DNA from: a virus
IMG/VR virus record: IMGVR_UViG_3300036715_000254
Span: 1 to 54,601 of that record
Reading direction: 5' to 3' (one strand)
DNA length: 54,601 bases
Below are positions 13,942 to 54,058 of the stretch, in pieces. Position 1 is the first letter of the stretch. Each line of letters starts with the position of its first letter. Position numbers and translations under genes: made by a program. A model generated the notes under the pieces. It saw nothing but the letters and a program-made list of their open reading frames with translations. It ran no database searches and was not told where the DNA came from.

Positions 13942-14529
13942 ATGGCACGTAAAAATAACTCTATTGAAGATGAGATTGAACAAGAAAAGTCGCCCGGTCT
14001 AAGTTTGCTATTTGGTGAGATTACAACCGAATTAGTTGCTGAAACTATTGCATGGATCCTTACTGAGAACCTATCCGAAAATCCTCCTGATCAGCTAACG
14101 CTATTGATTAACTCGCCTGGTGGTGATTTGTCAGCAGCATTTGCTCTGATTGAGATTATACAAGGTAGTCGTATTCCAGTCCGTACAGTCGGTCTGGGTG
14201 AGATTTGTTCAGCTGGATTGATTATTTTCATGAGCGGAACAAGGGGTCATCGTATCCTTACACCAACTTGCAGTGTAATGAGTCACCACTTTAGCACTGG
14301 AGTAAGCGGTAACTTCCATGAGATTTTAAACGTACAGAAGGAATTGAACTTTATGAATCGCCGTATCATCAACCAATATGTGCATTGCACCGGATTATCT
14401 GAAGATGAAGTAACATCGAAGCTAATCCCATCGCGAGATGTATTCTTGTCACCACAAGATGCCGTTGAGCTTGGTATTGCTGACGATATTCGGGGAGTTG
14501 GTGCACCACCAAACAAGCTAAAACAGTAA
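13942..14529 (+). CDS. ClpP-like serine protease
   Basis: A 195-aa member of the ClpP/crotonase fold. LLINSPGGDLSAAFALIEII is the oxyanion-side Gly motif. The likely catalytic triad is Ser90 (EICSAG), His115 (SVMSHH) and Asp166 (SRDVFLS), with the closing DAVELGIADDI typical of ClpP. In phages such proteins act as head maturation proteases or as ClpP variants. A stand-alone ClpX-type zinc domain is encoded at 53117. A hairpin follows the stop. Confidence 0.9.
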   Translation: MARKNNSIEDEIEQEKSPGLSLLFGEITTELVAETIAWILTENLSENPPDQLTLLINSPGGDLSAAFALIEIIQGSRIPVRTVGLGEICSAGLIIFMSGTRGHRILTPTCSVMSHHFSTGVSGNFHEILNVQKELNFMNRRIINQYVHCTGLSEDEVTSKLIPSRDVFLSPQDAVELGIADDIRGVGAPPNKLKQ

Positions 14530-14612: not shown

Positions 14613-16160
14613 ATGACCAATTATGCAATATTACTGCAGGAAGCTATTGCTAACGCTGCATTCCCAAAAGCTTCTAAACTTATCCAATCGTACTTGAAAA
14701 AGCACCTAGGTACGACTCGTGTATATCTGTATCCAGAGCCAGAACACTTTAAGAGTGGTGGGCGTGCTGGAGTTGGAATTCGCTATTTCATCAACGCAAT
14801 GGAAAGTGTGCGTTTTAACTGGTTGTCTGATACATCAGTTGATACGTCAAAGAATCTAATGTCTGTGGACTATTGGGATGGGCACGGTCATGGAAATAAG
14901 CCGTCATATCGTATGACATTTGATAAGTCACAAAGCCTAGTTAAGTCACTACCGCTTATTGTAAACTTCATTCAGACTCCGGTCATGGGTGATACATTAT
15001 GGGTTGAAGAATCAAATATTATGGAATCAGCAGTAGCAAACATGAACGCATCGTTCAGTACAATTATTGAAGCTCGTGCAAGCGGTGGAAACATCCTGCC
15101 AACAATCAGCAACGTTATCCGCGCATTTAGTCAAGGTCTAAACTTGAAGGATATGCGTAACGACAGTAGCATTGGAACTGGATATGATAAAGTGGTCATG
15201 GCGGCTCGTGAACTTTATCCACAGTTCTTTGAGAAGCAAGGTGTGTCCGTTGTATTTTCAAACAAGCATAATGCAACAAAACTTGACGCTGGTAAGCTGG
15301 CGGCTAAACTTGGTATCCAGGGTGTATCTGCTAAAGTGAGTGTTGGTGGTGTTGAAACTATTATTGCCCCAGCAGCTATTGAAACAATGGAAGAGAACCT
15401 TCCACGTATATGTTACGAAGAGCAATTAGATGACTTGCGCCGGGCGATGGTATTGTTGATGAGCAATGCTACTCAATCCCTATATTTGGGTGGGCGTGGT
15501 GGTGTTGGTAAGACTGCCGTTGTAGAAGAAGAACTTCACAAACGTGGACTAAGTGATGGGGAAGGTTATTTCAAGATTACTGGATCTGCTTCCACTGCCG
15601 GTATCTACCGTATCCTTTACATTCACCGTAAGGACATTCTGTTGTTTGACGATAGCGATGGAGCACTTGCCGATCAAGACTCCCGTAACCTGTTCAAAGC
15701 AGCTTCCGATACCAAGAAGGTGCGTAAGATTGCTTGGATGAAAGCTGGTAAGAACTACGTTGATCCAGACGACATTGATGAGGATGACGAAGATAGCGAT
15801 CCGGATATACTGCCACGTTACTTTGACTTTACTGGTAAGATTATCTTTATCAGTAACTTGAAGCTAGACAAATTGGATCCGGACGGTGCTTTGCGCACTC
15901 GTGGATATGTTTTGAACATTGATCCAACAGATGAAGAAGTGTATAACTACATGGGTAAGATTGTTGATAAGATTAAACTGGATGTAGACCATGATCTAAC
16001 AAGTAAGCAACGCCAAGAGGTTATTGACATTCTGCGCACTCGTCGTTTGAAGGAAGGCGGAGCAAACCTGCGTCAGCTGGTTCGTGGTCTAAACACAATG
16101 GCAGGTATATTGGCGGGCGGCGGTACTGATTACCATAACATGATTTTACGTTATGCCTGA
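14613..16160 (+). CDS. AAA+ ATPase, 515 aa
   Basis: Residues 1-260 have no recognised domain. A P-loop follows at 294-301 (GRGGVGKT), Walker B at 342-348 (ILLFDDSD), and a sensor-1-like KIIFISN segment. A very acidic insertion (DPDDIDEDDEDSDPD) lies between Walker B and sensor 1. The C-terminal part contains a possible Arg finger region (RRLKEGGANLRQLVRG). It is conserved in layout with phage AAA+ proteins that remodel DNA or protein complexes, but the partner is unknown. The preceding late-promoter-like site suggests late expression. Confidence 0.85.
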   Translation: MTNYAILLQEAIANAAFPKASKLIQSYLKKHLGTTRVYLYPEPEHFKSGGRAGVGIRYFINAMESVRFNWLSDTSVDTSKNLMSVDYWDGHGHGNKPSYRMTFDKSQSLVKSLPLIVNFIQTPVMGDTLWVEESNIMESAVANMNASFSTIIEARASGGNILPTISNVIRAFSQGLNLKDMRNDSSIGTGYDKVVMAARELYPQFFEKQGVSVVFSNKHNATKLDAGKLAAKLGIQGVSAKVSVGGVETIIAPAAIETMEENLPRICYEEQLDDLRRAMVLLMSNATQSLYLGGRGGVGKTAVVEEELHKRGLSDGEGYFKITGSASTAGIYRILYIHRKDILLFDDSDGALADQDSRNLFKAASDTKKVRKIAWMKAGKNYVDPDDIDEDDEDSDPDILPRYFDFTGKIIFISNLKLDKLDPDGALRTRGYVLNIDPTDEEVYNYMGKIVDKIKLDVDHDLTSKQRQEVIDILRTRRLKEGGANLRQLVRGLNTMAGILAGGGTDYHNMILRYA

Positions 16161-16275
16161 AGAAAGGAAACACTTGCCTTCTTTATCACTATCACCACAA
16201 TTGGATGTTGCTTTAAAAGAACGTTACATATGTCAACTAAGTGAACTACCTAAATCGGAAATGTCATTCAAATGA
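16153..16275 (+). CDS. Very small hypothetical protein, 40 aa
   Basis: Starts with ATG 16153 inside the end of the AAA+ gene and ends in an ATGA overlap with the next gene. An in-frame TTG at 16174 behind AAGGAAACAC is an alternative start. The product is polar with no known family. It is supported only by perfect overlap at both ends. Confidence 0.4.
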   Translation: MPEERKHLPSLSLSPQLDVALKERYICQLSELPKSEMSFK

Positions 16276-17501
16276 AATCGTTTAAGCATTACATTAATGA
16301 AGCTGAGGTAAATAGCCACATGACTCACTTGAGTGATTTGGTATTTATCAGCGGTGTTGCTGGTACAAAGGAAGCAGTTAACTATCTGCGCGACCTCCGT
16401 AACCTATTTGGTCATGTACAGAAGAATGCGTATAGCGTAAAGTTTGACGGGGCGCCAGCAATCATCTGCGGTATTGATCCAAGCGACAAGCAGTTCTTCG
16501 TCGCTAAGAAGGGTATCTTTAACAAGACTCCAAAGGTGTACAAGACACAAGCAGATATTGATGCTGACTTAAGCGGTGAACTTGCTGATAAGTTTACTGT
16601 ACTATTGAAAGAGCTACCAAGCCTTGGGATTAGATCCGGTATCTACCAAGGCGACCTTATGTACACACACGATGATCTGAAACACGAAACAATCGACGGC
16701 GTGAAGATGGTTGTATTCCATCCTAACACAATCGCATATGCAGTTCCCGAAGATAGCGAACTAGCGCAACAGATTTTAGCATCTAAAATCGGGATGGTGT
16801 TCCACACTACCTATACTGGTAACAGTTTTGCTACACTGAAGGCAAACTTTGGGAAGAACATCGTAAACAAGTTCCAAGCTAGCAAATCAGTCTGGGCTAT
16901 TGATGCGACACTAAACAATCAAACAGCAAACTTTACATTGAACGATGCGGAGTACGCGCAAAGCGAAATCCTGTTAAAGGACATTGGACTACAGTTCCAA
17001 CAGATGCCAAGCGCACTCTTAAACAAAATGGTAAGCGATGAAGAGATTCGTTCGCTAGTCCTGATCTATATTAACTCGTTGGTTCGTAAGAACGTCAAAG
17101 ATATCAATCCTGTCGCAATGTCCAAAGGCTTCTTTGAGTTCATTGATACTCGTTACAATAAAGAAATCACATCTAAGAAAACTGAGAAGTCGCAGAACGC
17201 ACTCCATGAGAAGAAGCTCAAGGCATTAGAACTGTTCAAAGTTTATACACATGAACAGCTAGCAACCGTGTTTGAACTGGCAAAGAGTATTGACTTGCTC
17301 AAGGATATGCTTCTGACCAAGATGCGTAAGATTAACGGATTGAGTCATTTCATCAAGACAAAGGATGGATTTAAGGTAACAAGTCCGGAAGGATTTGTTG
17401 CGATATCCAGTACAAACGGAAGTGCAATTAAGCTAGTTGATCGCTTTGAATTTAGCCGTAACAACTGGGATCCTCTAATAACACGAGGTTGGCAGAAATG
17501 A
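16272..17501 (+). CDS. Ligase-fold (KxDG) head-associated protein, 409 aa
   Basis: The N-terminus MKSFKHYINEAE looks like the T4 capsid-targeting sequence (MKTYQEFIAEA in T4 internal proteins), with a possible gp21-type cleavage after Glu10 (INE/A). The body resembles a T4-like phage family (possibly DUF6267): a KFDG motif with Lys57 in KFDGAPAI, a later IYQGDLMY segment and DGVKMVVFHPN. These correspond in order to motifs I, III and IV of covalent nucleotidyltransferases (DNA/RNA ligases, capping enzymes). It may be an RNA-repair or capping-type enzyme packed in the head. Enzyme activity is inference. Confidence 0.7.
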   Translation: MKSFKHYINEAEVNSHMTHLSDLVFISGVAGTKEAVNYLRDLRNLFGHVQKNAYSVKFDGAPAIICGIDPSDKQFFVAKKGIFNKTPKVYKTQADIDADLSGELADKFTVLLKELPSLGIRSGIYQGDLMYTHDDLKHETIDGVKMVVFHPNTIAYAVPEDSELAQQILASKIGMVFHTTYTGNSFATLKANFGKNIVNKFQASKSVWAIDATLNNQTANFTLNDAEYAQSEILLKDIGLQFQQMPSALLNKMVSDEEIRSLVLIYINSLVRKNVKDINPVAMSKGFFEFIDTRYNKEITSKKTEKSQNALHEKKLKALELFKVYTHEQLATVFELAKSIDLLKDMLLTKMRKINGLSHFIKTKDGFKVTSPEGFVAISSTNGSAIKLVDRFEFSRNNWDPLITRGWQK

Positions 17502-17524
17502 GTTTAAATGGGGTCAAGCAAACA

Positions 17525-17532
17525 TATAAATA
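17525..17532 (+). promoter_or_regulatory. T4-type late promoter
   Basis: A perfect TATAAATA, 17 bases before the ATG of the GIY-YIG remnant at 17549. It may serve the nucleotidyltransferase gene at 17673 as well. Confidence 0.65.
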
Positions 17533-17548
17533 TTTCAAGGAGTATTAT

Positions 17549-17683
17549 ATGAAAAGTGGTTTTATCTATCTTTGGTGTGATACAAAAAGAAACAAATATT
17601 ATCTAGGTTCTCATGTTGGAAATATAGATGATGGTTGTATTGGAATGACAGTTAAAGAAGTAGGCTACTCATATGACATTTAA
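17549..17683 (+). pseudogene. Truncated GIY-YIG endonuclease remnant, 44 aa
   Basis: The AAGGAG site before ATG 17549 is good. The first 29 residues (SGFIYLWCDTKRNKYYLGSH and on) match the N-terminal GIY-YIG module of phage endonucleases: the FIY and YLGSH strands and the IDDG turn are all present. The reading then runs into unrelated residues and stops inside the next gene. The catalytic Arg/Glu region and the DNA-binding C-terminus are missing. It looks like a homing endonuclease deleted except for its start. Confidence 0.65.
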
Positions 17684-18257
17684 ATCATATTTAAATGAAA
17701 GAGATCAAAAGGCAGCTATTGTTTGTAGTTTTTCGAGATTTCAACCACCAACAATTGGGCATGGTCTTCTGGTTAAGAAGGTAATGGAAACAGCTCGGAG
17801 CAAGCATTGTGATCATGTTATCTACTTGAGTAAGACGCAAGACCCCAAGAAGAATCCATTAGACGTGAACACAAAGGTAAAATGGGCAAAGTTGATGTTC
17901 CCCGGTGCTAATATTAAGGCTGCGGATGCAACATTACAGACTTTCATTGATATGGTCACCGCATTAAATACTGTATATAAAACACTGTATTTGGTAGCTG
18001 GTTCAGATCGTGTTCCTGAGTATCAGAAGCTGCTTGACAAATACAATGGAGTTGAGTATCATTACGATGTTCTACAAGTTGTCTCCGCAGGTGAGCGCGA
18101 CCCGGATGCTGATGGAGCCGCAGGTATGAGTGCTACAAAGATGCGTGAAGCAGCAAGTGCGAACAATTTAAGCAAGTTTAAAAAAGGACTTCCAAGTCAT
18201 GTGCAAAGTAAAGCACAAGCAATGATGGACGATGTTCGAAAGGGAATGGGACTGTAA
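17673..18257 (+). CDS. HxGH-type nucleotidyltransferase, possibly packaged in the head
   Basis: The N-terminus MTFKSYLNE resembles a T4 capsid-targeting sequence. The Rossmann-type nucleotidyltransferase motif is FQPPTIGH (27-30 TIGH), and the distal GMSATKMREAA matches the ISSTxIR motif of NMN/pantetheine/cytidylyltransferases. At 194 aa it is a single domain. Substrate is not clear; NAD or phosphate-ester nucleotide transfer is possible. Its neighbours (ligase-fold protein upstream, unknown protein downstream) have overlapping or close ends, suggesting joint late expression. Confidence 0.8.
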   Translation: MTFKSYLNERDQKAAIVCSFSRFQPPTIGHGLLVKKVMETARSKHCDHVIYLSKTQDPKKNPLDVNTKVKWAKLMFPGANIKAADATLQTFIDMVTALNTVYKTLYLVAGSDRVPEYQKLLDKYNGVEYHYDVLQVVSAGERDPDADGAAGMSATKMREAASANNLSKFKKGLPSHVQSKAQAMMDDVRKGMGL

Positions 18258-19060
18258 TGGCGGCATCCGAAGGCGTTGATCTAGAATGGTGTATCGTTGA
18301 CATGATTAATAGTAACACTAAGCAAAATAGAGTCTATTCTGCTAACATTAAAGCGCAAGCTGAAAAATGTGTCGATCACGTACGCAAATTTGCTGGTTCA
18401 CAAAAGATCCAAGCATGGCATTCTGATGATCCAAAAGGTCCTTTTGGTACAGTAAAAGGTGAACCCGAACCAAAGACTGATGTTATATTCAATATTGGTG
18501 GTAAAGTCTATTGTGCGAGCGTAAAAATGGCTGGTGCAGTACAGCTTGCGTCTGGCCAAGGCGCGAGTACGGCAAAACTTTTTCAAGCCGCTGCAAATGC
18601 ATTGCCAAATAAAACTGAAGGTAAAGTTGTTTCCAGCATCATCAAATCTTTAGAGACGATGCCAACTCGCATGTTGTCTAGTGCCAATTACGACAGAATT
18701 GCTAAAGAAGGTTCTGAGAAAACTATTCAAGAATTCATCAAGAATGGTAAGATCATTACAGACAAGAATTACGAATTGTGGGTACAGAACAATAAGCCAG
18801 CCTTAATGACATCGCTTCTGGATTATGTTGAAAATGATTTAGATTTCTTTGCTGCATTAATTGAAGAGTCAATGACTGGCGCAGAAACACTTAAAGCATA
18901 TAAGGGAGCTGCTGCAGACTCTATTATCAGCCCAAAAGGATTTCACGAAATTGACATTGGTTATGTTTACCAGATACTACCTAAAATTAAGATTGACATT
19001 CGCGGTAAGTCACGATCCGGTATAACTGGTGTTGCATTCAGAATAGACTTTACTCCATAA
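18257..19060 (+). CDS. Hypothetical protein, 267 aa, possible nuclease fold
   Basis: Starts in a TAATG overlap with the nucleotidyltransferase. Residues 64-95 (EPEPKTDVIFNIGGKVYCAS, then VK) resemble a PD-(D/E)XK core: Asp, a beta hairpin, then a strand ending in S-V-K. The rest is helical. The match is weak (Ser instead of Glu/Asp before VK) and the call is tentative. It may act with the two preceding late genes. Confidence 0.45.
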   Translation: MAASEGVDLEWCIVDMINSNTKQNRVYSANIKAQAEKCVDHVRKFAGSQKIQAWHSDDPKGPFGTVKGEPEPKTDVIFNIGGKVYCASVKMAGAVQLASGQGASTAKLFQAAANALPNKTEGKVVSSIIKSLETMPTRMLSSANYDRIAKEGSEKTIQEFIKNGKIITDKNYELWVQNNKPALMTSLLDYVENDLDFFAALIEESMTGAETLKAYKGAAADSIISPKGFHEIDIGYVYQILPKIKIDIRGKSRSGITGVAFRIDFTP

Positions 19061-19063
19061 ATA
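19056..19063 (+). promoter_or_regulatory. Possible late promoter (close to start)
   Basis: CATAAATA lies four bases before ATG 19068. If used, the transcript would begin at about the start codon. Confidence 0.35.
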
Positions 19064-19067
19064 CATA

Positions 19068-20483
19068 ATGAAATTCACAGAATTTTGTAACCGTAACAAA
19101 AATGTAATGCAGTCATCGACTGCTAAACGCATCACTGACTCTATTGAAGTAACAGAGGAACGTGACGCATTTTACAATGGCAATCTGTTTAAGAAATTTG
19201 ACATGGTTGAGGAAAAGGGTATCCCATATCGTATCCTGGAACAGTGTAGCAATTACTATCAAGTAGTCGATGAATCAGGCAACTTGTTCCGTAAATTTCC
19301 AAAGCAATTAATCAAAACAGAATCTGTGTTTGTTAGGATTCCTGGATTTTTCCATGGCTACCGAGTTACAAGCGAAACAGGTATGAAACTGTTGGAATCT
19401 ATTGACCATGACAACTGTGACAATGTAGGAACTCTAAAACAACTTAAAGAAGCAGATAAAATGGAATCACAATTCAAGTCTAAGGACAAGCTAACAGTGG
19501 CAAAGATTATTGCTGATGCAATTGGCATTCCGCACGATTCAATCAGTGACCCATCTAACCTTGTTAATGCTGCTATCCGTAAGGCAAAGAAGGATCCGGC
19601 TTTAATGAAGAACAAGGCAATCCTCCAGAATATGCTCCAGATTGCTAAGGAAGTTGGTATCAAGTATAGCGATACAGCGTTTGATGTAAATGAATCTACG
19701 TTAAACGGTGGGAAAGTAACTCATGAGGTAACAGTTGACCATCATGGTAGTAATCAACAAGTACCTTTGTACACAAAAACATACAAAGTGTCAGCCAAAT
19801 CTGATGAAGACGCGTCTAATCAAATTAAAAAGTTAGTTGGCGGCAGAAATCACCGAGTAAAATCATTGCAACAAAAGGTAGCTGAATCTGAAGTTATCCG
19901 AAAGGGTGCTGACGGACGTACAATGATTAGTGCAGCATTGCTAATCGGTAAGGCGCGGGAGTTTGCTAAGAAGGATCACGATCCGAAGAAGCATGGAAAC
20001 AAGCTAATCGTTACCCCAGAACACAAAGCAATGGCGCGTAAGCACTTAATGGGTGAATCTTTTGAAGTTAATGAGTTAAACACCAACACTCTAAAAACAT
20101 ATTCAGCATTAGCAAAAAAACATGCTGTAAAATTGGCTGCTAGCGGTAGTAAAGCAAAAAATCCTGAAACCGCTAATGCAAAGTTAAACAAAGCAGGAAA
20201 GCGCCTTGATGGTGCAGCAAAAGCTGACAAAAAAGCATTTGGGAACGAATGGAAGAAACGTATTGGAATGTCTGAAGAGGTAGCATTTGATACTGCAACC
20301 AATACTAAACAAGAACGTCAAACCGGCGAAAAACCAATTATACTAAAAGACTTGCTGGCAAAGCTGCGAAAAGCTGGTCCGGATAACAGTGATTTGAATA
20401 ACGATGGTATTGATGATCACGTAGAAATGTTACAAAAGCGTTCCGCTAAGAAAATGCAAGTAGCAGGAGTTCAGGACGCATAA
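19068..20483 (+). CDS. Head-associated protein, 471 aa
   Basis: A very basic, Lys/Ala-rich protein with short modules typical of T4-like head proteins. Residues 45-85 form an SH3-like unit (IPYRILEQCSNYYQVVDESG, then FRKFPKQL). Residues about 145-205 (IIADAIGIPHDSISDPSNLV and on) are a domain also found in the protein encoded at 36340. The C-terminus has LRKAGPDNSDLNNDGIDDHV, a calcium-loop-like acidic turn. The N-terminus MKFTEF is a poor match to the capsid-targeting motif. Role probably structural or internal to the head. Confidence 0.65.
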   Translation: MKFTEFCNRNKNVMQSSTAKRITDSIEVTEERDAFYNGNLFKKFDMVEEKGIPYRILEQCSNYYQVVDESGNLFRKFPKQLIKTESVFVRIPGFFHGYRVTSETGMKLLESIDHDNCDNVGTLKQLKEADKMESQFKSKDKLTVAKIIADAIGIPHDSISDPSNLVNAAIRKAKKDPALMKNKAILQNMLQIAKEVGIKYSDTAFDVNESTLNGGKVTHEVTVDHHGSNQQVPLYTKTYKVSAKSDEDASNQIKKLVGGRNHRVKSLQQKVAESEVIRKGADGRTMISAALLIGKAREFAKKDHDPKKHGNKLIVTPEHKAMARKHLMGESFEVNELNTNTLKTYSALAKKHAVKLAASGSKAKNPETANAKLNKAGKRLDGAAKADKKAFGNEWKKRIGMSEEVAFDTATNTKQERQTGEKPIILKDLLAKLRKAGPDNSDLNNDGIDDHVEMLQKRSAKKMQVAGVQDA

Positions 20484-42386: not shown

Positions 42387-44603
42387 ATGAACATTGGTAC
42401 ACAAATGCTATCAGAATCTAAATTTTACACCGGATATTCACGCTGGATAGATACTGATAACAGATACGAAACATGGAATGAATCAGTTGGTCGTGTGATG
42501 AATATGCACCGTGAAAAGTATAAGGAGAAGCTAACTCCGGAACTTGAAGCACTGATTCAATTTGCTGAAGATGCATATAAAGACAAAGCCGTTCTAGGCG
42601 CCCAGCGCGCATTACAGTTTGGCGGAGAACAATTGAGAAAACATGAAGCTCGCATGTATAATTGTTCAGTATCACACGTAGACCGCCCTGCGTTCTTTAA
42701 TGAAGCAATGTACCTTTTGCTATGTGGTTGTGGTGTTGGATTCTCAGTGCAGAAACGTCACATTGATAAACTTCCAACAATCGCACGCCGTTCGACAAAG
42801 AAGGCTAAGATCTTTCAAGTTCCTGATAGCATTGAAGGATGGGCTGACTCTTTTGCTGTGTTACTTTCCAGTTACTTTACTGAAGGCGCTACGCATCCAG
42901 AGTATAAGGGCTGCCAAGTTCACTTTGACTATTCTAAGATTCGTCTACGTGGTGCGTTGATTAGCGGCGGCTTCAAGGCTCCGGGTCCTGATGGTTTACG
43001 AGCGGCGTTAATCAAGTGTGAAGACTTGCTGGAGAACTTGCTGCGTGATAATCCAATTACAAAGATGAACAGTATCACTGCTTACGACTTTATCATGCAT
43101 ATGAGCGATGCAGTATTGTCGGGTGGTGTTCGTCGTAGCGCTACTATTTGTATTTTCGACAAAGACGATCAGGTTATGCTCAAAGCAAAGACTGGCGATT
43201 GGTTTACTACTAATCCCCAGCGCGGCCGTAGCAACAATTCTGCTATGTTGATTCGCGATCAGCTAACTCGTGAAGAGTGGGCGGAAATTATGAAGTCGGT
43301 TAAGGATTTTGGCGAGCCAGGATTTATTTTTTCTGACGACGCTGACTTTATGTTCAACCCATGCGTTGAAATTGGTATGTTGCCACGTACTGAAGATGGT
43401 GAGAGCGGATTCCAATTCTGTAATCTGACTGAAATTAACGGTGGACAATGTATTACATTAGATGCATTGTTGCGCGCATGTAAGGCTGGTGCAATCCTAG
43501 GTACGCTGCAATCTGGTTACACTAACTTTACCTACGTGTCGGATGCTACTCGCAAGATTACTGAACGTGAGTCTTTGTTAGGTGTTTCGATTACTGGATG
43601 GATGGGCAATCCAAAGGTGTTGTTTGATGAGAACAATATGATCGCTGGCGCAACAATGGTTCGCGATGTTAATAAGCAAGTCGCAAAGATGATTGGTATC
43701 CCACAAGCAGCCCGTACCACTTGTGTTAAGCCTTCTGGTAATGCTTCCATTATATTAGGTACTGATAGCGGAATCCATGGCGCACATGCTTCTAAATATT
43801 TCCGTCACGTACAAATGAATGACGATGATGAAGTCGCTCGTATCATTACTCAAGTTAATCCAAAGATGGTTGAGCGTTCTGTATGGAGTAGCAATGGTAC
43901 TGATGTAGTTGTTGCGTTCCCCGTTGTTTCAAAACCCGGATCGATTTACAAGTCGGAACTTTTGGGTGTAAAGCAATTGGAATATGTGAAGAAGGCGCAA
44001 CAGTTTTGGGTTGAGTATGGTACAAATTACAAACTGAGTGTTGACAAGCGCCTGCGTCATAATGTATCTAACACAATCAGCGTGGACAATTGGGACGAAG
44101 TTGAACAGTACATTTACGATAACCGTGCATTCTTTGCTGGCATTAGCTTGATGAGCGCATCGGGCGACAAGGCTTATGTACAGGCACCGTTCACTGAAGT
44201 TGTTGACCATAAGCAAATCATGAAGCTGTATGGTGAAGGATCTCTGTTTGCATCTGGATTAATTGTTGACGCTAACCACGCATTTAACAATAATCTATGG
44301 CAGGCATGTGATACAGTTATGGGTTATGGACTAAATATGGAAGATGATTCAATTCCAGCAATTGTACTAAAACGTGATTGGGTTCGTCGCGCTATTAAAT
44401 TTGCTGATACATACTTCAAGGGCAATCTGGAGCAAATGACGTTTTGTTTGAAAGATTGTAATAATCTACACAAATGGAACAACATTGTCCAGAGCATTAA
44501 GCCAATTGACTTTGCAACTGATTTGCTTGAAAAGACTTTTGTTGATGCTGACTCTCTAGGAAGCCAAGGTTGCGCTGGTGGCGCTTGTGAAATTACATTC
44601 TAA
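42387..44603 (+). CDS. nrdJ: Adenosylcobalamin-dependent (class II) ribonucleoside-triphosphate reductase
   Basis: Reduces NTPs to dNTPs with a cobalamin-generated thiyl radical. At 738 aa it is almost the length of the monomeric Lactobacillus leichmannii enzyme. The thiyl motif is N-P-C326-V-E328, the second active Cys is C345 (FCNLTEI) and C93 (YNCSVSHVD) fits the first. The C-terminal shuttle pair is C729-x4-C734 (CAGGAC). No NrdB-like subunit follows. The thioredoxin gene immediately after fits as its reductant. Needs vitamin B12 from the host. Confidence 0.93.
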   Translation: MNIGTQMLSESKFYTGYSRWIDTDNRYETWNESVGRVMNMHREKYKEKLTPELEALIQFAEDAYKDKAVLGAQRALQFGGEQLRKHEARMYNCSVSHVDRPAFFNEAMYLLLCGCGVGFSVQKRHIDKLPTIARRSTKKAKIFQVPDSIEGWADSFAVLLSSYFTEGATHPEYKGCQVHFDYSKIRLRGALISGGFKAPGPDGLRAALIKCEDLLENLLRDNPITKMNSITAYDFIMHMSDAVLSGGVRRSATICIFDKDDQVMLKAKTGDWFTTNPQRGRSNNSAMLIRDQLTREEWAEIMKSVKDFGEPGFIFSDDADFMFNPCVEIGMLPRTEDGESGFQFCNLTEINGGQCITLDALLRACKAGAILGTLQSGYTNFTYVSDATRKITERESLLGVSITGWMGNPKVLFDENNMIAGATMVRDVNKQVAKMIGIPQAARTTCVKPSGNASIILGTDSGIHGAHASKYFRHVQMNDDDEVARIITQVNPKMVERSVWSSNGTDVVVAFPVVSKPGSIYKSELLGVKQLEYVKKAQQFWVEYGTNYKLSVDKRLRHNVSNTISVDNWDEVEQYIYDNRAFFAGISLMSASGDKAYVQAPFTEVVDHKQIMKLYGEGSLFASGLIVDANHAFNNNLWQACDTVMGYGLNMEDDSIPAIVLKRDWVRRAIKFADTYFKGNLEQMTFCLKDCNNLHKWNNIVQSIKPIDFATDLLEKTFVDADSLGSQGCAGGACEITF

Positions 44604-53344: not shown

Positions 53345-54058
53345 ATGAACACCAAATATGAATTCGTACCGGGAGACGAGAAAGTAATCGCACCGGGCCG
53401 TACCGTAAAGCGCATTCGCGCCCTAGTGACCATTGCGTTTGTATGCTCAACCGGAGACTTGGGCGGATACATTGAGAGCGAGGAGTCTCTTGCCGAGTCC
53501 GGCAATGCTTGGGTGTCCGGCGATGCTTGGGTGTCCAGCAATGCTCGGGTGTACGGCAATGCTTGGGTGTACGGCAATGCTCATGTGTCCGGCGATGCTC
53601 GGGTGTCCAGCAATGCTCAGATATACGGCAATGCTCAGGTGTACGGCAATGCTTGGGTGTCCAGCAATGCTCATGCGTCCGGCAATGCTCAGATATACGG
53701 CAATGCTCGGGTGTCCGGCGATGCTCATGTGTCCGGCAATGCTCATGTGTCCGGCAATGCTCAGATATACGGCAATGCTCGGGTGTCTGGCAATGCTCAT
53801 GTGTCCGGTGATGCTTATGTGTCAAAACTCGGTCTCATTATCTGGTTCTCGCAAGTTGGCTCAGAAAACGGAACACTGACTGTTTATAACACCAAAGACA
53901 ACACACTGGAGGTCACTCGCGGATGCTTCAAAGGCACTGTCGATGAATTCCTAACCGCATCAGAAAAGAAGCACGACGACCAGACGCACTTGGAATACAG
54001 GATGCTAATTGAAGTTGCGCATTCGCGCATTACTCGTGCAAGGAGTCAAACACCATGA
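53345..54058 (+). CDS. Hexapeptide-repeat beta-helix protein, 237 aa
   Basis: N-terminal 50 residues (FVPGDEKVIAPGRTVKRIRA, then GDLGGYIES) are a conserved head in such phage proteins. Residues 52-159 are 18 tandem hexapeptides of the form S/Y-G/S-N/D-A-x-V, which build a left-handed or similar beta-helix. The C-terminus (160-237) is a small capping domain. Function unknown; some related proteins are called polymer-forming. Its repeats are nearly codon-frozen. GAGGAGATAGTAA precedes the ATG. Confidence 0.8.
   Translation: MNTKYEFVPGDEKVIAPGRTVKRIRALVTIAFVCSTGDLGGYIESEESLAESGNAWVSGDAWVSSNARVYGNAWVYGNAHVSGDARVSSNAQIYGNAQVYGNAWVSSNAHASGNAQIYGNARVSGDAHVSGNAHVSGNAQIYGNARVSGNAHVSGDAYVSKLGLIIWFSQVGSENGTLTVYNTKDNTLEVTRGCFKGTVDEFLTASEKKHDDQTHLEYRMLIEVAHSRITRARSQTP
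53498..53821 (+). repeat. 18 tandem copies of an 18-bp unit
   Basis: Unit close to TCCGGCAATGCTCATGTG, varying mostly in the third to sixth codon positions. Copies are in register with the protein hexapeptides. All three forward frames and both strands stay open across it. Confidence 0.9.

Follow-up and report, generated by a model that had tools for sequence, protein, structure and literature searches.

Two neighbouring tagged genes and their enzyme families

The window, that is the whole stretch of DNA analysed, is a 54.6 kb virus fragment in which two neighbouring genes encode proteins with similar short N-terminal tags (DUF6267 protein, MKSFKHYINEAEVNSH; NMNAT-like enzyme, MTFKSYLNERDQKAAI). 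The features of this region are as follows.

13942-14529: ClpP-type protease (PF00574, E = 6e-31)
14613..16160, plus strand: AAA ATPase-like protein of 515 aa, a third candidate cargo (PF13191, weak; phrog_1250, E = 1.5e-26)
16272..17501, plus strand: DUF6267 protein, the first enzyme, 409 aa (Pfam PF19782, E = 5.4e-94)
16272..16301, plus strand: tag MKSFKHYINE of the DUF6267 protein, in IPIII register and conserved in relatives, with a predicted cut before Ala11
17673..18257, plus strand: NMNAT-like nucleotidyltransferase ('cytidylyltransferase'), the second enzyme, 194 aa (phrog_3041, E = 2.4e-58)
17673..17699, plus strand: tag MTFKSYLNE of the NMNAT-like enzyme, followed by Arg and so without a canonical cleavage site; tagged homologues are reported in virions
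18257..19060, plus strand: neighbouring protein of 267 aa, untagged (phmmer E = 3.3e-5 to Melnitz_4917)

The product of 16272-17501 scores 316.1 bits against PF19782, for which the curated cut-off is 27, and thus belongs to DUF6267. Its nearest isolated relatives are found in Phage C48C1, Methylophilales phage Melnitz and Stenotrophomonas phage DLP_6; Pelagibacter HTVC008M and several hundred cyanophages rank next, and every identity is below 60%. The gene order of DUF6267, sometimes a small gene, and then the NMNAT-like enzyme is retained in most inspected loci, and separate parts of a single profile, phrog_455, match the two proteins, which hints at a DUF6267-NMNAT fusion. A defence-family library gave no match. 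Melnitz_4917, the homologue of the 18257..19060 protein, bears the tag (MQGFKTFLSEAK). The AAA protein has nrdC.10 as its T4 homologue, and its N-terminus, MTNYAILLQE/A, is in register at Y4, L7, L8, E10 and A11 and fits the loose pattern only; none of its relatives sought in viral contigs could be confirmed. A short ORF between the two enzyme genes (17489-17683, ATG at 17550; SGFIYLWCDTKRNKYYLGSHVG) resembles a truncated GIY-YIG homing endonuclease start, and the T4 late promoter word TATAAATA is present at about 17525-17532, just upstream of it. Far downstream, the ORF at 53345-54058 consists mostly of short repeats (NAxVSGNA-like), and this repeat keeps overlapping frames open on both strands.

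The nucleotidyltransferase identity that had been proposed for the second protein was borne out by structure prediction. Its model (pLDDT 89) has nicotinate nucleotide adenylyltransferase (NadD) as the best Foldseek match (E = 4.8e-7, TM about 0.55), and TIGH and SATKMR correspond to the (H/T)xGH and SxTxxR motifs of the HIGH family. The protein reaches only 19.7 bits against the NMNAT equivalog TIGR00482, for which the cut-off is 112.45 bits. From the model we take it to be an NMNAT-fold adenylyltransferase that is NMNAT-like rather than NMNAT proper. The C-terminus is much extended in some NMNAT-like enzymes; in the enzyme at 5155-7554 of contig L098, the extension contains a P-loop (FLLGAPGSGK), and this layout recalls the NadR arrangement of an adenylyltransferase with a kinase.

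For the first protein, described initially as ligase-fold, the outcome was divided. The motifs KFDG (57-60), QGD (126-128), EGFV (373-376) and KLV (387-389) are present in the 409 aa protein, and the blocks K57xD59G60, Q126GD128, F149xPN152TIxY156, E373GxV376 and K387LVxR391 are invariant or nearly so in 19 aligned sequences; by our own naming, they line up, in sequence, with motifs I, III, IIIa, IV and V of ligases and capping enzymes, and the predicted model has a long helical stretch ahead of motif IV. Comparisons by hhalign with T4 RnlB and with the DNA ligase of the window gave no match, neither did a comparison with PDB sequences, and DUF6267 was the one family that Pfam returned consistently at E up to 10. 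Hence the conserved motif order stands, these profile and sequence comparisons found no ligase match, and we call the protein ligase-like, a description supported at motif level only.

Register of the tag and its separability from the enzymes

As proposed in the initial annotation, both ORFs begin with N-termini of the T4 internal-protein type, with their residues in the register of IPIII, whose start in the T4 genome is MKTYQEFIAEA. Mutational work on the T4 signal assigned residues 4 and 7 to targeting and residues 8 and 10 to processing (PMC9026906), and the two functions are separable, as Asp10 stops processing and leaves targeting (PMC9026906); thus a sequence that lacks the cleavage site may still serve as a tag. 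The DUF6267 protein matches IPIII at F4, Y7, I8 and E10, which covers all targeting and processing positions, and also at A11, and the processing site, (L/I)xE followed by A/G/S, is present as INE/A, in agreement with the cleavage form previously noted for this protein. In the NMNAT-like enzyme, the tag residues are F3, Y6, L7 and E9, with the spacing of IPIII and one residue shorter. A canonical processing site was not found there, because LNE/R has Arg where A/G/S is expected after the gp21 cut, and we therefore describe this enzyme as tag-bearing and not as a processed internal protein. In T4 itself, gp61.1 (gene 61.1; T4 18966-19130; positions 467-631 of contig L263), a protein of 54 aa, starts with MKTFKEFIKED, a near-perfect signal with Asp after Glu, and is possibly an unrecognised T4 internal protein.

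The strict tag pattern was defined as Met, 1-3 residues, F/Y, two residues, F/Y/I/M, a hydrophobic residue, any residue and Glu. Homologues of the NMNAT-like enzyme carried the strict tag in 25/79 distinct viral contigs and a looser tag in 7/79, and shuffles gave 0.4% strict tags; these 79 contigs were collected via the catalytic motifs of the enzyme, and there was thus no selection for the tag. For DUF6267, 50/73 distinct genes with complete N-termini were tagged under a slightly wider pattern. Met stood at T4 register position 1 in 44/45 unique DUF6267 tags; positions 4, 7, 8 and 10 are partly fixed by the pattern, so that the Met spacing and the near-exclusive Phe4 are the independent observations. 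One of the six search peptides for the first DUF6267 locus set was MKSFKHYI, and the tag could have biased recovery of that set; the second set is free of this bias. Position 11 varies (E, D, A, S and Q in DUF6267), and A/G/S is not conserved at this position in either enzyme family. We consequently dropped the cleavage site as part of the conserved signal. By alignment, conservation covers the targeting half of the signal and does not extend to the cleavage half.

Moreover, the tag comes and goes independently of the domains behind it. In C48C1, it is present on five genes of the cluster, and the bearers include unrelated neighbours. Cyanophage DUF6267 proteins lack the tag and start straight at the domain (MAKNTHLEHLEDD), and some NMNAT-like enzymes are also untagged (MKTLVYAFGRMNPP). 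DUF6267 is fused to an NMNAT-like enzyme in 15/74 distinct loci, suggesting that the two enzymes act together. Eight inspected fusions have a single tag at the front and a linker without a tag at the start of the second enzyme, and four others have no tag. Fusions of ~590-650 aa occur in freshwater viral contigs (L118 3941-5722, L119 4001-5776, L125 3944-5887, L140 3941-5722 and others), and another NMNAT-like paralogue often follows them. In AlphaFold2 models, residues 1-15 of the DUF6267 protein and tag residues 4-10 of the NMNAT-like enzyme have pLDDT <50 and lie outside the predicted fold. On this sequence evidence, the tag behaves like a portable signal that is separable from the enzyme domains.

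Tagged enzymes reported in virions, and competing explanations

Mass spectrometry of purified virions from four cyanophages has detected homologues of the second enzyme, and statements on virion content below refer to the proteomics passages of these reports: T4-GC190 of S-SM1 (PMC3037559), S-SZBM1_140 with 2 peptides (PMC9146016), S-CREM2 ORF154 with 3 peptides (PMC10665884) and S-SCSM1 ORF91, or S-SCSM1_91 (PMC9602691). All four are tagged. The S-SM1 protein begins with MKKFSAFLNEA, the sole convincing tag in the S-SM1 genome, and the others begin with MRFRQFIIEA (S-SZBM1), MKNFSSFLTEA (S-CREM2) and MKSFLQFLKEA (S-SCSM1). These virion data cover homologues of the second enzyme, and the DUF6267 partner is untagged in those phages; the untagged DUF6267 proteins S-SZBM1_141, S-CREM2 58890-59777 and S-SCSM1_257 are not among the virion proteins given in those passages.

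In the reported virion list of S-CREM2, all four strictly tagged ORFs of the phage are present (4/4, p = 0.0027; p = 2.4e-4 after setting aside named structural and lysis proteins), namely a SAM hydrolase, an APH-like kinase, ORF136 and the NMNAT-like enzyme. ORF13 (MKDLHSFLTEQ) fits the loose pattern only, yet it is in the same list, and the Cas9-like ORF12 has RFASFMAEAA close to its N-terminus. The kinase of S-CRM01, cited as a virion protein in a passage of PMC10665884, starts with the tag MISFDQFLSEK. The rule is imperfect, as the tagged small proteins S-SZBM1_191 and S-SCSM1_30 are not reported in virions in the corresponding passages. The proteomics passages on virion NMNAT-like proteins do not mention the tag, and in the open-licence PubMed Central literature, capsid targeting together with cyanophages led only to a T4 review; an earlier mention elsewhere is possible.

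Two further observations concern tagged proteins. S-CREM2 ORF12 (contig L146, 7704-10313), the Cas9-like nuclease of virions, and related proteins have an RW-rich leader of ~15-18 residues followed by the tag, an arrangement also present in L265 2702-3253, L266 from 3743, L267 from 3638 and L268 2965-5898 (for example, PLRFASFMAEAA and AGFSSFLKEAE); it may be an extended version of the capsid-targeting peptide. S-SZBM1 122311-122628 and S-SCSM1 44215-44535 encode homologous proteins of 105-106 aa (MKSFKSFLSESVNISG, MKTFKQFMSESVNISG) with a perfect tag; they are absent from the virion lists in those reports, and their genes adjoin head and packaging genes.

The enzymes might instead act only in the infected cell, in metabolism or RNA repair, with the motif being an amphipathic partner-binding helix and virion detection reflecting carry-over of abundant proteins. 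The proteomics authors themselves, in the passages concerned, offer packaging or co-purification as alternatives and thus name carry-over as a possibility; the reported peptides are few (2 in S-SZBM1 and 3 in S-CREM2), and half of the homologues are untagged and presumably work without the tag. However, carry-over leaves it unexplained that detection favours tagged over untagged proteins, that the untagged DUF6267 protein is missing from the reported virion proteins of three phages, and that the T4 register is kept on unrelated proteins, and we regard this explanation as unlikely. Enclosure in the head core could also serve assembly only, the proteins acting like a scaffold or stabilising the core, which has been suggested for T4 IPIII, with no delivery to the host. 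IPIII does affect T4 head assembly (PMC9026906), and conservation of the targeting half without the cleavage half would suit such a role, whereas the enzymatic motifs are intact in both families, which a purely structural role does not need, and the proteins carried are diverse (SAM hydrolase, kinase, nuclease-like). Hence we consider assembly alone very unlikely.

Finally, the pattern is short, and its frequency was compared with chance. Strict tags occurred at 30/4,629 candidate N-terminal starts and at 15/13,999 internal starts of nine phage sequences, a 6-fold excess (p = 3.9e-9). The window has 195 candidate N-terminal starts, for which ~0.2 strict tags are expected; two were found, in adjacent genes, and the chance of two tags in the window alone, calculated by hand, is about 0.02. 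Comparative evidence for the tag is far stronger than this window statistic. That the likeness is a coincidence or a composition bias at start codons (an MK-rich start and then a helix) draws on the modest window value and on the unrelated control phages SPO1 and Felix O1, in which 1/351 ORFs is tagged, a proportion not significantly below that of the T4-like phages (p = 0.06) with so small a number of ORFs, but it is scarcely credible against the N-terminal excess over internal starts and shuffles, the conservation among homologues and the association with virion lists. Taken over all sequences compared, the tag does not appear to be a matter of chance.

Probable head loading, timing and comparison with known systems

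Both enzymes are probably cargo of a T4-type head-loading system. An S77 (gp21) head protease is present in 6/6 tested relatives that have DUF6267; S-SM1 also has it, and the control phages do not (0/2). Within the 54.6 kb fragment, no S77 protease and no head genes were recognised. The ClpP-type protein of the window was considered as a lineage-wide head protease and rejected, because seven DUF6267-bearing relatives have no ClpP and the S77-tested relatives have S77; in the present phage its role may be metabolic or head-related. The description of the enzymes as late was not supported, since ATAAATA, taken as the promoter motif for late timing, is not enriched over chance within the window and does not occur just upstream of 16272.

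In the head-loading model, the first 9-10 residues would serve for capsid targeting by binding to the scaffold core while the head forms, and the enzymes would thereby be enclosed. A head protease of the gp21/S77 type would probably cut the DUF6267 protein after Glu10, a cleavage that its site makes plausible, and the NMNAT-like enzyme, in which the canonical site is absent, may keep its tag. The enzymes would then be surrounded by packaged DNA and would leave the head together with this DNA when the phage infects. Inside the host, the two probably form one module of an NMNAT-fold adenylyltransferase and a ligase-like adenylyltransferase, encoded by adjacent genes or as a fusion. The likeliest use would be the restoration of NAD+, to counter NADase defences, or the mending of RNA ends against an immediate host defence, which we put forward as a doubtful suggestion; phage NAD+ and RNA-repair systems have been reviewed (PMC9503650).

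The initial annotation suggested that both enzymes may be packed in the capsid and injected to act on the host, an interpretation that received partial support. For the wider family, packing is well supported by the tagged second-enzyme homologues in virions of four cyanophages; for this phage, we infer packaging, clipping and ejection as well as the chemistry. Packaging here is quite probable for the DUF6267 protein and reasonably likely for the NMNAT-like enzyme. The observation of the tags was confirmed and extended, in that tags of the T4 capsid-targeting type also occur far outside the T-evens, borne by enzymes that accompany the virion in relatives.

It is quite conceivable, if short of probable, that the capsid-targeting sequence of T4 works as a portable loading code of general use in the T4 superfamily beyond the T-evens, one that predicts host-delivered enzymes, and that DUF6267-NMNAT is an injected module for nucleotide or RNA-end repair that acts before phage gene expression. 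Such a code would span Kyanoviridae, Melnitz, C48C1, DLP_6-like phages and freshwater phages, and its predicted cargo would include NMNAT-like and DUF6267 ligase-like enzymes, SAM hydrolase, kinases and Cas9-like nucleases. Virion proteomics of marine T4-like phages has recurrently found non-structural enzymes, and in the published passages the authors were unable to separate cargo from contamination; a sorting tag would name cargo from sequence and, for part of this cargo, predict a new N-terminus. It would also suggest that T4-like phages of the ocean and of fresh water arm host takeover ahead of transcription. DUF6267 would gain a likely location within the head for its tagged lineages, and its partner would be the NMNAT-like enzyme, with which it sometimes forms a fusion.

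Among known systems, T4 IPI, IPII and IPIII have the same 10-residue N-terminal signal, with aromatics at 4 and 7, I/L at 8 and E at 10, and their Ala11 is also present in the DUF6267 protein; the tag of the NMNAT-like enzyme differs in being one residue shorter and without a canonical cut site. Unlike the small basic T4 internal proteins, the cargo here consists of unrelated enzymes of 194-409 aa in a different phage lineage. The NMNAT-like proteins of cyanophage virions are homologous to the second enzyme and tagged, whereas their DUF6267 partner, unlike that of the window, is untagged. Bacterial NadD/NMNAT shares the fold and the TIGH/SATKMR motifs with the second enzyme, at about 15% identity. 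T4 Alt likewise transfers nucleotides, travels in the head and enters the host by ejection, as predicted for the enzymes described here, but it has an unrelated fold and its N-terminus, MELITELFDED, is not of this tag type; moreover, Alt consumes NAD+, whereas the NMNAT-like enzyme would make dinucleotides.
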